Positions 1,435 through 58,600 of a DNA stretch of 62,403 nt are shown here, piece by piece; within the stretch, counting starts at the first letter, position 1; each line of letters begins with the position of its first letter. Below the pieces are notes generated by a model. It did not search any database and was not told where the DNA came from. It worked only from the letters and a program-made list of their open reading frames with translations. Source of the DNA: Lactobacillus psittaci DSM 15354 (GTDB lineage Bacteria > Bacillota > Bacilli > Lactobacillales > Lactobacillaceae); NCBI RefSeq assembly GCF_000425905.1, contig NZ_AUEI01000009.1, forward strand, positions 1 through 62,403. Reading direction: 5' to 3'. A program made the translations under genes and the position numbers.

Positions 1435-2238
1435 ATGAATGCTATTCAAATGATTCTGGTTGTATTCATTGCTTTCCTAGCTGGTATGGAAGGTATTTTG
1501 GATGAGTGGCAATTCCATCAACCAATCGTTTCATGTACGTTGATTGGTTTAGTAACAGGTCATCTTACCTTAGGGATCATGTTAGGTGGTTCTTTACAAT
1601 TTATTGCAATGGGTTGGGCTAACATTGGTGCCGCAGTTGCACCAGATGCTGCATTAGCTGGTGTTGCTTCAGCAATTATCATGGTTCAAGGCAACTTGGG
1701 TGAAAAGCAAATTGGTACCGCTATTGGTATTGCTGTTCCTTTAGCTGTTGCCGGACTAGGGTTAACTATGATTGTTCGTACCCTTGCCGTTGCAATTTCA
1801 CATATTATGGATAAAGAAGCTGAAAAGGCAAACTTTAGAGCTATTGGTATGTGGCAATTGATTGCTACTGGATTACAAGGTTTAAGAATTGCAATTCCAG
1901 CAGCTTTATTGCTTGCAATTCCATCTTCTCTTGTTAAAGCTTGGCTTTCAGCTATGCCAGCATGGTTATCAGACGGTATGACCATTGGTGGTGGTATGGT
2001 TGTGGCTGTTGGTTATGCAATGGTTATTAACATGATGGCAAGTAAAGAAGTTTGGCCATTTTTCGCTATCGGTTTTGCCTTAGCAGCAATTAAAGACTTA
2101 ACCTTAATTGCTCTCGGTGCAATTGGTGCAGCTCTTGCTTTAATGTACTTAGCTCTTGAAAGTAATGGCTCAAGCAAAAACAATTCAGGTTCTAATGGCA
2201 CAGGTGATCCATTAGGAGATATTCTTGATAATTATTAA
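1435..2238 (+). CDS. manM: PTS mannose-family transporter subunit IIC
   Basis: This 267-residue polytopic protein is the IIC membrane subunit, which forms the sugar channel together with IID. The sequence is mostly hydrophobic, with Gly/Ala-rich helices and a conserved region around GGSLQFIAMGWANIGAA typical of PTS-II_C (EII-Sor). The C-terminus is a short hydrophilic Ser/Asn/Gly tail. It starts 14 bases after the IIAB stop, with AGGAGG in between, so it is translationally close to manL. Confidence 0.95.
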   Translation: MNAIQMILVVFIAFLAGMEGILDEWQFHQPIVSCTLIGLVTGHLTLGIMLGGSLQFIAMGWANIGAAVAPDAALAGVASAIIMVQGNLGEKQIGTAIGIAVPLAVAGLGLTMIVRTLAVAISHIMDKEAEKANFRAIGMWQLIATGLQGLRIAIPAALLLAIPSSLVKAWLSAMPAWLSDGMTIGGGMVVAVGYAMVINMMASKEVWPFFAIGFALAAIKDLTLIALGAIGAALALMYLALESNGSSKNNSGSNGTGDPLGDILDNY

Positions 2239-53788: not shown

Positions 53789-55117
53789 TTAAATTTTTGA
53801 CTTGTAGTATTTTTTGACTAGATAAAAAATCGGTATGCCTAGCGCAATAAAGCTAATAAATAAAATTACTCCATGAAAATCATTGATAATTTCACAAATG
53901 GCAACAAAAGCTCCACCAGCAATGGCCACAATTGGAACTAAAGGGTAAAGCGGAGTTGAGAAAGGACGTTTTTCATTTTGTTTTCTCAAAATAAAAATAC
54001 CAAAGAACGCTAGAATATAGAAACAATAAACTGAAAAAACGCATAAGTCGGATAGGCGATTAGGATCAAAAAATAGCATCATAATAAAAGCTAAAACTGA
54101 AACAAAAATTGTGGCCACAATTGGTGTTTTCCCTTTAGGACTCAAGTAAGCTAAGCTTTTTGAAAATGGAATATCTTTACGTTCCGCCATCGCAAAGACA
54201 ATTCGAGGAAAAGTTAACATTTTCCCATTGAGTGTCCCCAGCATTGAAATGATAATACCAGCTGCCATGATTTTCCCACCAATAGGGCCGAATGCCTTAG
54301 CAGTCATATATGCTGGGGCGTTTTCACCTAAGCGATGAATTAGATTAGCAGGCAAGAAGCGAAAAATCCCAATTGTAATTAAACTATAAATTACTAAAAC
54401 AGTACTAATTCCCAAGATTATTGCCTTTGGTAATAATTTTTGGGGATTTTTCATTTCGCCACCTAAGTTAGCAATTAAAATCCAGCCGTCATATGCAAAT
54501 AAAGTAGCTAAGATGGCAACACCGAAATTGCTAGTTGATTGGCTGATTTCACTTACTGTTTGGCCTAATGCATTTTGATTTCCCCAGAAAAGGCCAAAAA
54601 TTATAATAGCTGCTATTGGAATCAATTTTCCTAATGTTGTTACGACTGAGAAAGTAGCACTAATTTTATTTTCGAATAGATTCATAAATGCAATTAAAAT
54701 AATACTACAAATTGCTAGAGGAATTCGCCAATTAGAGCTGAGACCGAAAAAGTTAGCCATTAAAATACTCATAAAACCAGAAACGGAGGCAATTATTGCT
54801 GGTCCATAAATTATAATCTGCATCCAGCCAGCTAAAAATCCAGCCATTCTACCATATATGTTTTCAATATAAATATAAAGCCCACCGGTGTAAGGCATTT
54901 GTGCTCCTATTTCGGCGATTGTCAATCCACTAGTTAAAGTAATGATTCCACCTAAAATCCAAGCTAAAATTGCTAAAGCAGATGAACCGGCACTATCTAA
55001 AACAGCTGCTTGCTTGAAGAAAATTCCTGAACCAATGATGGTTCCAATAACAATTGAGATAGCCGAGGTAAAACCTAATGATCGTTTTAAGTTTTCTTGC
55101 GGTTGTTTTTGATTCAT
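53789..55117 (-). CDS. APC-family amino acid permease (LAT/SteT-like)
   Basis: The 442-residue transporter has 12 membrane helices and the LAT-like signature IVIGTIIGSGIFFKQ in helix 1, then PYTGGLYIYIENIYG. It resembles SteT-type Ser/Thr exchangers. ATG 55117 follows TGGAGC; a further 16-codon upstream extension would read through the terminator's tail region. The mRNA leader encodes a 23-residue Ser/Thr-rich peptide followed by mutually exclusive hairpins ending in a terminator (55146-55195), so expression is probably controlled by attenuation. A Ser/Thr substrate would fit but is unproven. Confidence 0.9.
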   Translation of the reverse strand: MNQKQPQENLKRSLGFTSAISIVIGTIIGSGIFFKQAAVLDSAGSSALAILAWILGGIITLTSGLTIAEIGAQMPYTGGLYIYIENIYGRMAGFLAGWMQIIIYGPAIIASVSGFMSILMANFFGLSSNWRIPLAICSIILIAFMNLFENKISATFSVVTTLGKLIPIAAIIIFGLFWGNQNALGQTVSEISQSTSNFGVAILATLFAYDGWILIANLGGEMKNPQKLLPKAIILGISTVLVIYSLITIGIFRFLPANLIHRLGENAPAYMTAKAFGPIGGKIMAAGIIISMLGTLNGKMLTFPRIVFAMAERKDIPFSKSLAYLSPKGKTPIVATIFVSVLAFIMMLFFDPNRLSDLCVFSVYCFYILAFFGIFILRKQNEKRPFSTPLYPLVPIVAIAGGAFVAICEIINDFHGVILFISFIALGIPIFYLVKKYYKSKI

Positions 55118-55145
55118 TGATACTTGCTCCATTCTTATTGGCGAT

Positions 55146-55195
55146 AAAAGAACCCCACCAAACATTAAGTCTGTTCACTTAGTGGTTGGTAGGGT
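55146..55195 (-). terminator. Attenuator terminator of the permease leader
   Basis: On the minus strand, ACCCTACCAA pairs with TTGGTGGGGT (10 bp, one wobble), with an inner TAAGT/ACTTA hairpin, and is followed by TTCTTTTA. It lies 28 bases before ATG 55117 and competes with a 9-bp antiterminator (see the leader entry). Confidence 0.85.
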
Positions 55196-55322
55196 CAGCA
55201 AAAACAAGAAAATATGTATACCAAATTACTCAACCACTATTGTAAAGAAGGTTGAGGAAAGGGAATTATTTGATTGAAGGATTTCTAAAAGAAACATACA
55301 ATAACCTCCCTAGGTATAATTT
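55180..55322 (-). promoter_or_regulatory. Ribosome-mediated attenuator leader of the permease gene
   Basis: Four segments are visible on the minus strand. Strand 1, CTCAACC (55256-55250), pairs with strand 2, GGTTGAG (55235-55229). Strand 2 can instead pair as TAGTGGTTG (55239-55231) with strand 3, CAACCACTA (55188-55180), over 9 perfect base pairs. Strand 3 also belongs to the terminator (55195-55146). Strand 1 lies inside the coding region of a 23-codon leader peptide, directly over its Ser and Thr codons. A ribosome stalled there would free strand 2 to pair with strand 3 and prevent termination. This is the trp-type layout. Confidence 0.72.
55226..55297 (-). CDS. Leader peptide of the permease attenuator, 23 aa
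   Basis: A GGGAGG ribosome binding site lies seven bases before ATG 55297, and the frame ends at TAA (55228-55226). The peptide runs MFLLEILQSNNS, then LSSTFFTIVVE. It has four Ser, two Thr, four Leu, two Ile, two Val and three Phe. The cluster S-N-N-S-L-S-S-T falls just upstream of and over hairpin strand 1. Its position between promoter and attenuator, and not its length, is what argues for function. Confidence 0.65.
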   Translation of the reverse strand: MFLLEILQSNNSLSSTFFTIVVE

Positions 55323-55328
55323 AAATAA

Positions 55329-55358
55329 AGATTACCACAGCTCTAGAGTTAGATGCAA
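55329..55358 (-). promoter_or_regulatory. Promoter of the permease leader
   Basis: On the minus strand, TTGCAT (55358-55353) and an extended TGG-TAATCT (-10 at 55334-55329) are separated by 18 bases. Transcription would begin near 55322, about 25 bases before the leader peptide start. Confidence 0.55.
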
Positions 55359-55580
55359 GTAATAACTAAGTTATTAGTCCCAGCCTTTGAAGTAATTCAA
55401 TTATCTGATGTCTAGTTTTATTTCTAAATAAATAACGCTAGACAATATTACTATTATGAAAAAATTATTTTATCTATAATTGACCGTTTTGCTCTTTAAA
55501 AGAAAAGCAAGTTAAAAATAACATCAAAGCGGAAAGTGCTTAAAACGCTGGGGGGGGAAGGGACGAACCTATCTACCATA
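55359..55580. other. Divergent intergenic region with a G8 tract
   Basis: AT-rich DNA lies between the permease leader promoter and the adhesin promoter. It contains TAGACAT/CTAGACAA-like short repeats and a run of eight G residues at 55550-55557. No gene or RNA was recognised. Confidence 0.5.
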
Positions 55581-55655: not shown

Positions 55656-58600
55656 ATGCTTTCTAAGAATAATAAAAAGATGCGTGCGATGAAAATGGCC
55701 GCTGACGAGCAACAACATTTTTCTTTGAGAAAGTTAAGTGTGGGATTAGTCTCTGTTTTAATGGGGACCACATTTTTTTTAACGAGTCAATCAACTACAG
55801 CCAAAGCTGATACCTTACCGGTTACTACTTCTTCAACGAGTTCTTCATCTGATAACCAAGCTGAAGATACTGAATCAAGTCAAGAAGCTAAAGGCAATGC
55901 AACTAATGAAAACGAATTAGTATTATCCTCTTCACAAGCAAAAGAAAGTGAAGCAAATGCTACTCAAGCAACTTCTTCAGTTGAAAGTAATAACACTGAT
56001 AGTCAAGCAACCAACAATAATACAACTGAATTGACTATTAGTGATTCAAATAGAACAGTAAATACCAACGCTTTAACTGAAAGTAAAGCTCAAGTTAATG
56101 ACGCTTCAGTTAAGGAAGTTTCAACTTGGAATGACTTTGATAGTGCTTTAAGAAATTCAAACATTCATACTATTGATATTAATGCAGACTTTGGTAGTAA
56201 TAACTACAATAACAATGTTAGTCGTTACAGCATTGCCTCACGTCAATTAACTATTAATGGTAATGGTCACAAGGTTGATTTCGGTTCAATCGGCTACTAT
56301 ATGAATCCGGCAGCTGATAGAACTGCTGATATTACACTTGAAAATGGTACTTTTACTTCTAAGAGTGCCACTGGTCCATTTGCCTTCCTTAGTGGCTATG
56401 ATCGAAACTCTAAGATTGGCCAACCAGGTAGAGCTACGCATAAGATTACTTTAAAGGATGTAAATATTGACGCAGGTCAAGGTGCATATGCTAACAACGC
56501 TGAAATTGACCTTGAAGGTACTGTCAATATTAATGCTGGTAACTACTACCTTTCACCAATTACTAACAAGAAAGTTTATACCGAAACTGGTGGTAACCGT
56601 GCAGGTATTGAAGCTGCTTGGATTATTATTAAGCCAAGTGCCAACGTAACAATTAACACTGACCACGGAGCAGCTTTAGCTAACGATAATTCTGACAGTA
56701 ACCACAAGATTGAAGTTGGTGCTAATGCGACATTAAACGCAACATACAACCACTCCACTTGGGGTACTCCTGATGCCGGGATGAAGACAGCTGTTCTTTC
56801 AAACGGTGCTAATGGTGGTACTGTAATTTTCCGTGCAGGATCAAAAGCCACTTTCAATATGGCTCACAACAACGTTACTAACTTAAATGGTAATGGTAAC
56901 TCTGGTTGGGGTGACGGTTCTGTTCTTTACTTAGGTGCTGCAACTACTACGATTGAAAAGGGTGCAACTGTTACTATTAACAACCCTAAAGAGTCTCACA
57001 CTGATAACTCAATCTTCCTTCGTAATGATGGTACTTCATTAAATGTTTACGGTAATTTAATCATTAACGATGGTGCACGTAACTACACCTTCAGAATGGA
57101 TAACAAGGTAACATTGAACGTTGGTCAAAAGTTGGGCGACAATGACTTCTCAAATGATAATGGTAAGTTGATTGTTAACCGTGATGGCGACTTCTACTTG
57201 AACAACGATGGTGGTTCACTTTCACTTTGGGGACCAATTACTGTTAATGTTAACTCAGGTGCCCGTCTTGAAATTAACTCTAATGGTATTACTAATGGCA
57301 GAGGTACTGGTCAAGGCCAATCACTTCTTAGAGTGGGTAACAGTAGTAAGTTAAATGTATTTAAGCGTGGTACTTTTATCTTAAAAGATAGCAGTAACGG
57401 TGCTGTTTCACTTGTTAACCAATATGGTGCAAATGGTAACTTCTATTTTGATAATACTGCTCAAGTGATTTTTGACATTAGTCAAAATGGTAGTCAAAAG
57501 AGTCGTATCTTCTCATTACCAGGTCAATTAGTGGCTACTAATGACTCAGTACGTGCAATGCTTAATCCAACTTCAAGCATTACTAACATGGGTACCTTTA
57601 AGCGAGTTCAATTACCATTAAATGGCTCAGGAACAATTATTGGAACTACTTTACACTCAGACTACCAACAAGTTGGCTACAGTAACATTACCAATATCAA
57701 TAATGCCATTAGAAATGGTCAATTAAGATACCTCGAATTCTCAACTCGTGAAGTTAACAAGCCATCAATTACCGGTGAAGGTCAAGGCTTTACTGATAAT
57801 GGTGCACAATTAAAGGGTAATGTTGTTGATGAATCTACTGAAACTGGTGCTGTTGCGGTAGTTTACGATTCAAAGAACAATGAACTAGGTCGCGCTAATG
57901 TTGATGATAATGGTAACTTTACAATTAACTTAGCTAAGCCACTTCTTAATAAAGAAGGCGTTCGCGTAAGAATCGAAACTCCTCGTGGTGCAGGTGCCTT
58001 TGCAACCACAGTTGCTCCTTTAGGACCAACTGTTAAGAGTCCAATTACTGTTGGTCGTGACCAAAGTTTAGTAGGTCAAGATGCTAGTCAATACATCACT
58101 AATAAAGATGCAATTTCTAACTTAAAGCCAGGTTCAACTAGTTTTGATGATTCAGATTATGAACCAACCTTTAGTAAGGCTGCTTGGAAGAGTGTTGACT
58201 TTGATAAGAAGAAGGGTGTTATCACTGTAACTTATAAAGATAACACCACTACTGACTTGACGGTTGACTTAAACGTTAAGAATGTCATTACTGACGCCGA
58301 CAAGTACACTCCTGAAGCAGGCACTATTAAAGTTGATAATGGTCATAAGTTAGACGGAGACGATGCTTATGATGCCATTAAGAACCATGACGACTTACCA
58401 GCTGATAAGACTACTGGTTACAATTGGGTAGTTGATGATACTCACCCAGCAGTAGATACTACTAAGCCTGGTGACCACAAAGGTTATGTACAAGTAACTT
58501 ATGAAGATGGTTCTAAGTCTGACCCAGTTGAAGTAACTGTTCACGTAATTGGTGACAATGAAAAATACAATGCCGTTCCTAAGACTTTAAACGTTAAAAA

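Follow-up and report, generated by a model that had tools for sequence, protein, structure and literature searches.

The minus-strand leader at positions 55322-55146 of the window (the whole 62,403-nucleotide stretch of Lactobacillus psittaci DSM 15354 contig NZ_AUEI01000009.1 analysed here), delimited by sequence and fold, is very probably a class I ribosome-mediated attenuator that ties expression of a BasC-like amino acid permease to how much charged tRNA-Ser is available. The assignment draws on the anatomy of the leader, its conservation and covariation, the match between codon cluster and permease, and the effect of ribosome position in relatives; we infer that ribosomes stall on the leader, that read-through responds to stalling, and that serine is the physiological signal. 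With serine plentiful, the ribosome would pass the Ser cluster and reach the stop codon where strand 2 ends, covering that strand, so that strand 3 would pair with strand 4 and transcription would end before the permease. Where charged tRNA-Ser is scarce, the ribosome would halt on Ser codons at or before strand 1, leaving strands 2 and 3 to pair, preventing the terminator and allowing transcription of the permease. On an untranslated leader the 1:2 hairpin would form first, a presumed kinetic step that would make termination the default.

The regulated gene (53789..55117, minus strand) encodes a 442-aa APC-family amino acid permease of LAT type, BasC-like; it matches PF13520 at 187.6 bits, and its best subfamily is LAT (TIGR00911), yet under the cut-off of that model. 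The best solved relative is 6f2g (300.5 bits), identified in excerpted text of PMC6472337 as BasC, a LAT-type alanine-serine-cysteine exchanger, and serine is accordingly a putative cargo by homology. Translation most likely starts at the ATG at 55117 (MNQKQPQE), preceded by a Shine-Dalgarno (SD) sequence GGAG at 55130-55127; the start at 55165 in the list of open reading frames falls inside the terminator and was rejected. The permease is 92% identical to that of L. jensenii, of which the host is a close relative.

The promoter, on the minus strand like all elements of the leader, comprises a −35 element TTGCAT (55353..55358), placed by comparison with relatives, whose upstream DNA carries TTGCAA-N17-TATTCT and similar at this site, and a TG-extended −10 element TAATCT (55329..55334), placed by position and conservation. 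This placement suggests a transcription start near 55322, the boundary adopted in an earlier sequence-only reading of the stretch; a simple promoter scan did not list TTGCAT/TAATCT and lists a promoter-like site farther upstream (55428-55400). An inverted repeat, TGTCTAGTTTTATTT / AAATAACGCTAGACA, with 15-nt arms that are 87% complementary, occupies 55409-55444 between two divergent genes. A run of eight G (55550-55557) lies in an AT-rich stretch ∼100 nt before a plus-strand gene (start near 55657) that we take, by its signal sequence, to encode a YSIRK-type surface protein, and the run may represent either a phase-variable tract or a site sensitive to assembly.

Downstream of the promoter, the 5′ arm of an outer helix (TATACC, 55313..55318) pairs in the fold with a 3′ arm GGTATA (55217..55222), enclosing a Shine-Dalgarno sequence GGGAGG (55305..55310) that lies 7 nt before the ATG of a 23-codon leader ORF (55226..55297), translated as MFLLEILQSNNSLSSTFFTIVVE, with Ser at codons 9, 12, 14 and 15 as well as two Thr and four Leu codons. 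Strand 1 (CTCAACC, 55250..55256) falls within Ser14-Ser15-Thr16, as the sequence-only reading had noticed, and strand 2 (TAGTGGTTGAG, 55229..55239), which ends at the leader stop codon, can pair with either strand 1 or strand 3: the 1:2 helix joins CTCAACC (55256-55250) to GGTTGAG (55235-55229) through 7 bp, and the 2:3 helix joins TAGTGGTTG (55239-55231) to CAACCACTA (55188-55180) through 9 perfect bp (100% complementary). Strand 3 (55180..55188) is both antiterminator partner and part of the 5′ side of the 3:4 intrinsic terminator (55146..55196), in which GACCCTACCAA (55196-55186) pairs with TTGGTGGGGTT (55161-55151), supplemented by inner pairs and followed by CTTTTA. Every element of the earlier description, from the ribosome binding site and leader frame to the three helices, is thus present on the minus strand, in the proposed order between the promoter, as placed by relatives, and the permease start.

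Chance is a poor explanation for this arrangement, the 1:2 plus 2:3 geometry arising in 6/2000 dinucleotide shuffles of the leader and the complete set including 3:4 in 0/2000. The window's 2:3 duplex has a shuffle p of 0.01, and 3% of foreign partners equal it; the folded leader reaches −50.6 kcal/mol (z −2.73; 2/200 shuffles equally stable), and the terminator hairpin stretch gives −23.3 kcal/mol in a computed fold. A simple terminator scan returned 0 sites at the leader although the fold contains the 3:4 hairpin, probably because the stem is interrupted. A leader ORF with its own ribosome binding site between promoter and gene (the ORF from sequence, the promoter by comparison) and an intrinsic terminator ahead of the permease (from the fold and from duplexes evaluated row by row in relatives) are both features that define class I.

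A scan of named genomes identified 79 permease loci, 78 with upstream DNA (L065 being the one without), which were filtered for an ATG-initiated ORF with an SD sequence and at least 3 Ser codons. A Ser-rich leader peptide of 4-9 Ser codons precedes 39/78, starting 140-218 nt upstream of the matched permease start; filter matches at L045 and L052 were judged chance ORFs and stand outside the 39. The peptides include MLFFNNQNQQFSSSSASNSIKAE (L010), MFILHTMQFSSSSSSSSS (L068) and MLQFSISKFNNSSSSTSTLLVVE (L. jensenii, L001), and the window leader is among the two poorest in serine, with 4 Ser codons, the same number as L026. The 39 come from records bearing the name Lactobacillus or Limosilactobacillus and from L013, a metagenome-assembled genome labelled Bacteroides sp. 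that carries a lactobacillus-type permease with a Ser leader and is probably a wrongly binned contig. At L036 and L041, the sequence upstream of the leader resembles the tail of another transporter gene, and at L004 and L025 the permease leader stands back to back with a ribosomal protein L10 leader (RF00557; about 2071-2191, minus strand). Simple DNA comparison does little to trace the window's leader: among 61 genomes of the genus it matched 2, that of the host and, weakly, G012 over 47 nt, and no match was found among plasmids.

The leader SD sequence is kept among these loci while the ORF sequence varies, and the peptide outside the Ser/Thr run is not conserved. The latter observation, together with the identity of the downstream gene as an amino acid permease, speaks against a ribosome halted by an antibiotic or by its own nascent peptide, the mechanism of inducible resistance leaders; leader attenuation of drug resistance genes is described for Firmicutes in extracts of PMC10314930 and PMC6310831, but for the present leader such arrest is exceedingly improbable.

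No Ser leader was found, by filter or by reading, at seven close relatives (L028, L030, L031, L033, L038, L040 and L052) whose permeases are 65-71% identical, and no leader of this type was found at 32 more distant permease loci (L043-L051, L053-L059, L061-L064, L066 and L069-L079). The sequence-only reading had named as refuting its proposal homologues that lose the leader while keeping the permease; this state occurs in the seven close relatives, and among the Thr leaders considered below L152 (genome G349) looks half-decayed, with CTCAAC/GGTTGAG kept ∼120-85 nt before its gene and no Thr-rich ORF found.

Where the leader is present, its pairings are maintained through sequence change. Across core alignment A2, with 38 distinct rows among 39 (the full alignment A1 omits the near-duplicate L067), the 1:2 helix is paired in 95.7% of cells, compared with 27-48% for slid partners (maximum 47.7%), and both sides differ in 34 cells, where shuffles average 9.4. 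Two-sided change touches 3/8 pairs, which does not exceed the shuffle mean of 3.0, and a further test gave 3 against 2.3, so that the covariation excess of 1:2 lies in cells and score, not in pair number. Because strand 3 registers differ between clades, 2:3 pairing was evaluated per row and on a 25-row clade alignment with a single strand 3 register (A4), in which 98.9% of cells are paired (slid partners 21-50%, maximum 49.8%) and 3/11 pairs show two-sided change, where shuffles give 0.8 and 3/500 of them reach 3. The structure strings were taken from a single row (L010, or L138 for the Thr-leader alignment A3), which favours the real pairings over the slid controls. By row, duplexes beat a shuffled partner at p<0.05 in 24/31 distinct rows for 1:2, 27/37 for 2:3 (10/37 being no better) and 33/38 for 3:4; foreign strand 3 partners equal the native 2:3 duplex in 24.5% of cases on average. 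The consensus structure of A1 recovered only the 1:2 hairpin, probably because the registers of strand 3 and the terminator vary by clade.

The clearest case involves all three strands: the reuteri group has CAGCC, GGCTG and TTTGGC in strands 1, 2 and 3, and L018, L026 and L027 have CAGTC, GACTG and TTTGGT; L025 and L042 differ again, with strand 2 GCAGTTG facing CGACTGC or TAACTGC. The alignment proposed in the sequence-only reading thus finds strands 1, 2 and 3 changing together with the Ser cluster kept in 39 leaders, and the mutually exclusive 1:2, 2:3 and 3:4 helices with compensatory change, a further defining feature, mean that comparison of relatives supports its assignment to class I attenuation well.

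Model searches reach beyond the Ser leaders. Model R1, trained on Ser leaders only, gave 33 matches in 29/397 Lactobacillaceae genomes (33/50 in the genus g6 search), 27/33 of them directly before a window-like permease and 6/33 at a ThrP-like permease, for which the best NCBIfam model, examined at L119, is the threonine/serine transporter ThrP at 560.6 bits, below the curated cut-off of 850. Window-like permeases occur at E<=1e-120 in 180/397 genomes, and at that threshold R1 matched at the permease in 10/10 permease genomes of genus g1 (0/15 of g1 genomes without the permease) and in 17/22 of g6 (absent in G065, G210, G232, G298 and G387), with matches in 0/148 sampled permease genomes of other genera. 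Leaders at the ThrP-like permease encode MQIYNRSIIHHLTSTSTTTTFIVVE, or MMINLHINDNNKLNTTTTSTTV in genus g23; there the R1 matches fell on the other strand from the real Thr leaders, whose hairpin is near-palindromic. In G006 (C3:70260-73117), two tandem permease copies have one R1 match between them. Window-permease matches in G082 (C34:61307-62629) and G416 (C81:90379-91713), both of genus g23, contain 1 and 2 internal TAA respectively and are possibly decayed copies; both genomes keep a Thr leader before ThrP.

Filtering for Thr plus Ser of at least 4 revealed a Thr leader of the same architecture, with 3-9 Thr codons, in 26 of the best 30 ThrP-like loci, and none at L162, L166 and L167; alignment A3 of these leaders omits L154, whose strand 2 does not fit the pattern, and the near-duplicates L140, L141, L147, L156 and L159. 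A joint model, R2, trained on both kinds and so no guide to leaders of other amino acids, gave 66 matches in 50/397 genomes, 27 before BasC-like and 37 before ThrP-like permeases by coordinates or reading; matches at G348:C12 and G122:C10 were read as ordinary terminators and set aside. Ser or Thr leaders are thereby placed in 48/397 genomes of 6 genera (g1, g5, g6, g14, g19 and g23). Since Ser runs precede BasC-like and Thr runs ThrP-like genes, the codon cluster tracks permease type; the cluster at strand 1 is accordingly cognate to the gene, as class I requires, with cargo assigned by homology and a weak copy of 4 Ser in the window. That the Ser-leader model finds four reuteri-type Thr leaders at E 3e-6 to 6e-4 suggests common descent of the two.

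The effect of ribosome position was computed by folding the RNA from the ribosome through strand 3, while strand 4 is still untranscribed, with the leading edge of the ribosome set 13 nt from the A-site codon, for 21 of the 39 Ser leaders (excluding L002, L005 and 16 others; the ORF start of L026 is too far upstream here also). Pairing of 2:3 peaks, ties allowed, on a Ser codon in 21/21 computed folds, and a ribosome at the stop codon leaves at most 1.1 2:3 pairs in 20/21 (5.5 in L042); in Limosilactobacillus leaders, for example L010, L016 and L018, the plateau begins at or beside the first Ser of the run. The 26 Thr leaders behave alike in computed folds, with a mean of 11.2 pairs on cluster Thr/Ser codons and 1.2 at the stop, where 3-5 pairs persist in L151, L154, L158-L160 and L163-L165. 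Strands 2 and 3 are thus freed on regulatory codons and blocked at the stop, the dynamic behaviour expected of class I, as seen in computed folds. Pairing is already high at earlier codons in L001, L004, L025, L035, L042, L068 and the window, where it is equally high for all A-site positions up to Thr16 and also with no ribosome, so that the window alone displays neither serine sensing nor a strong 1:2 default.

The flat profile bears on which amino acid is sensed, for which the sequence-only reading had offered serine, threonine or leucine. An identical attenuator reporting here on threonine, on serine and threonine together, or on leucine is unlikely, though it deserves weighing: the window leader also has Thr and Leu codons, LAT-type exchangers often accept several small neutral amino acids, 2:3 stays free when the A site holds Leu13 or Thr16 (an ACC codon of strand 1), and the Thr leaders form a genuine branch that shares the core. 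Set against these points, the cluster at this site is Ser in 39/39 Ser leaders (in a search that asked for Ser), the Thr leaders precede another permease, and a stall at Thr19 already covers much of strand 2, with 4.5 2:3 pairs left in the computed fold. Of the three candidates, serine is therefore favoured by the 39 leaders with 4-9 Ser codons, while threonine marks a separate leader before the ThrP-like gene.

Codon choice is compatible with serine sensing. The 226 Ser codons of 34 distinct leader peptides comprise UCC 31%, UCU 29%, UCA 27%, AGU 8%, AGC 5% and UCG 0, compared with a background of 7% UCC and of 37% AGY (12% in leaders); the 164 Thr codons of 26 leaders are 52% ACC against 22% in the background, and 2% ACG against 27%. 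The background consists of ORFs of at least 200 aa in six frames of the same loci and the window, which may include non-coding frames, and ORF starts placed too far upstream in L002, L003, L005 and L026 add a few codons to the leader counts. In B. subtilis, UCN codons slow ribosomes during serine starvation, according to passages of PMC3862929, and the leader bias fits sensing through such codons; it is not independent proof, because pairing constraints would also favour UCC and ACC. Host physiology offers a possible rationale: serC (TIGR01364) was not found in the 99.86% complete host genome by a model that as a control found it in 11/14 genomes (over cut-off in 4), and serine hydroxymethyltransferase is present, so that the host may be without the phosphoserine route and still able to interconvert glycine and serine, circumstances in which a serine-controlled exchanger would make sense.

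Conservation extends outside the three strands. The arms of the outer helix differ yet match in relatives (GTACAC/GTGTAC, GCGTCAA/TTGACG and CACACA/TGTGTG), and the helix is partly supported by comparison, reaching p<0.05 in 14/39 rows (median 0.065; window 0.08) in figures that include the misplaced starts of the four loci just named. A GAG-TGATTT segment is highly conserved, and the leader SD pairs with the codon cluster more strongly than in synonymous recodings in 11/39 Ser and 14/26 Thr leaders, which is suggestive of an SD masked by the codon run. The matching changes of the outer helix, and the constraint that the conserved segment implies, could also suit a switch driven by a metabolite or protein binding the RNA, with an incidental leader ORF; such a switch is very improbable given an SD-preceded ORF retained despite varying sequence, poly-Ser or poly-Thr runs that track permease type, biased codon choice, and release of 2:3 at the codon cluster. 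Searches for known RNAs also argue against it. No riboswitch or leader family of Rfam 15, the His, Thr, Leu and Trp amino acid leaders included, matched the leader at gathering score, and relaxing the threshold to E 5 brought up no more than weak matches to MicF (E 2.1) and RAGATH-7 (E 0.2). In agreement with the sequence-only reading, the T-box (RF00230) is unmatched in the window, and at 55050-55450 with E up to 5, and it is absent from 7 Ser-leader and 2 Thr-leader loci among 20 sources searched. T-boxes at L044 and L057 lie on the opposite strand, so they are not the permease's and were rejected as its control.

Beyond class I attenuation of a single gene, the leaders may form one homologous Ser/Thr RNA family in which the sensed amino acid is switched by rewriting the codon run in a kept RNA frame, comprising the strand 1/2 core, the segment after strand 2, the outer helix and a partly masked SD; this broader reading, under which the leader would be the first serine-sensing class I attenuator, is held tentatively, at a little below even chances. 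Were it true, transcription and translation in lactobacilli would be coupled tightly enough for leader attenuation to govern Ser/Thr transporters, genes for which a T-box is the expected device. The conserved Ser/Thr leaders also supply a compact natural series (one RNA frame, two amino acids, two permeases) for testing codon-set specificity, the tuning of sensitivity by UCC/ACC, and RNA polymerase-ribosome coupling in these Firmicutes, and they point to functions for two permeases and to an RNA family that has no Rfam 15 match. In the open-licence literature, covered mostly by title and abstract, neither a serine leader attenuator nor its Thr sister before lactobacillus transporters was found, nor, in that literature, a link between runaway transcription and leader attenuation.

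Attenuation by a translating ribosome in response to amino acids is textbook knowledge for enteric bacteria, the trp and thr attenuators combining a leader peptide of cognate codons with alternative hairpins and a terminator before the gene, whereas T-boxes are the usual explanation in low-GC Gram-positives. The class I trp, his and thr attenuators of Proteobacteria (for his, the mechanism is outlined in parts of PMC9413887) share with the present leader the cognate codon run, alternative hairpins and intrinsic terminator, but differ from it in that here the codons are Ser, the gene is a transporter rather than a biosynthetic operon, the hosts are Lactobacillaceae, an extra outer helix is present and no Rfam leader matches. 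The kind of control is already known in Firmicutes, since a Leu attenuator is established in S. aureus and His attenuators are predicted. The Leu-rich ilv-leu attenuator of S. aureus, backed in the available extract of PMC5794164 by mutants and leucine depletion, is likewise leader-peptide attenuation in a low-GC Gram-positive, and, compared by description, controls Leu/BCAA biosynthesis, unlike the permease here. Predicted His leaders in the B. cereus group, Peptostreptococcaceae and Erysipelotrichales (3-5 His codons with alternative hairpins, per portions of PMC9413887) resemble the present leader in peptide and hairpins but precede histidine operons, and the same portions state that histidine genes in Lactobacillales are controlled most often by T-boxes. 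These precedents (PMC5794164 and PMC9413887, as excerpted), together with the 48/397 Lactobacillaceae genomes that carry Ser or Thr leaders, temper the earlier description of the device as unusual for a lactobacillus transporter. In B. subtilis sinR, as presented in passages of PMC3862929, UCN Ser codons also report serine starvation through ribosome slowing, but do so within a coding gene, with no leader RNA or terminator, unlike the attenuator here.
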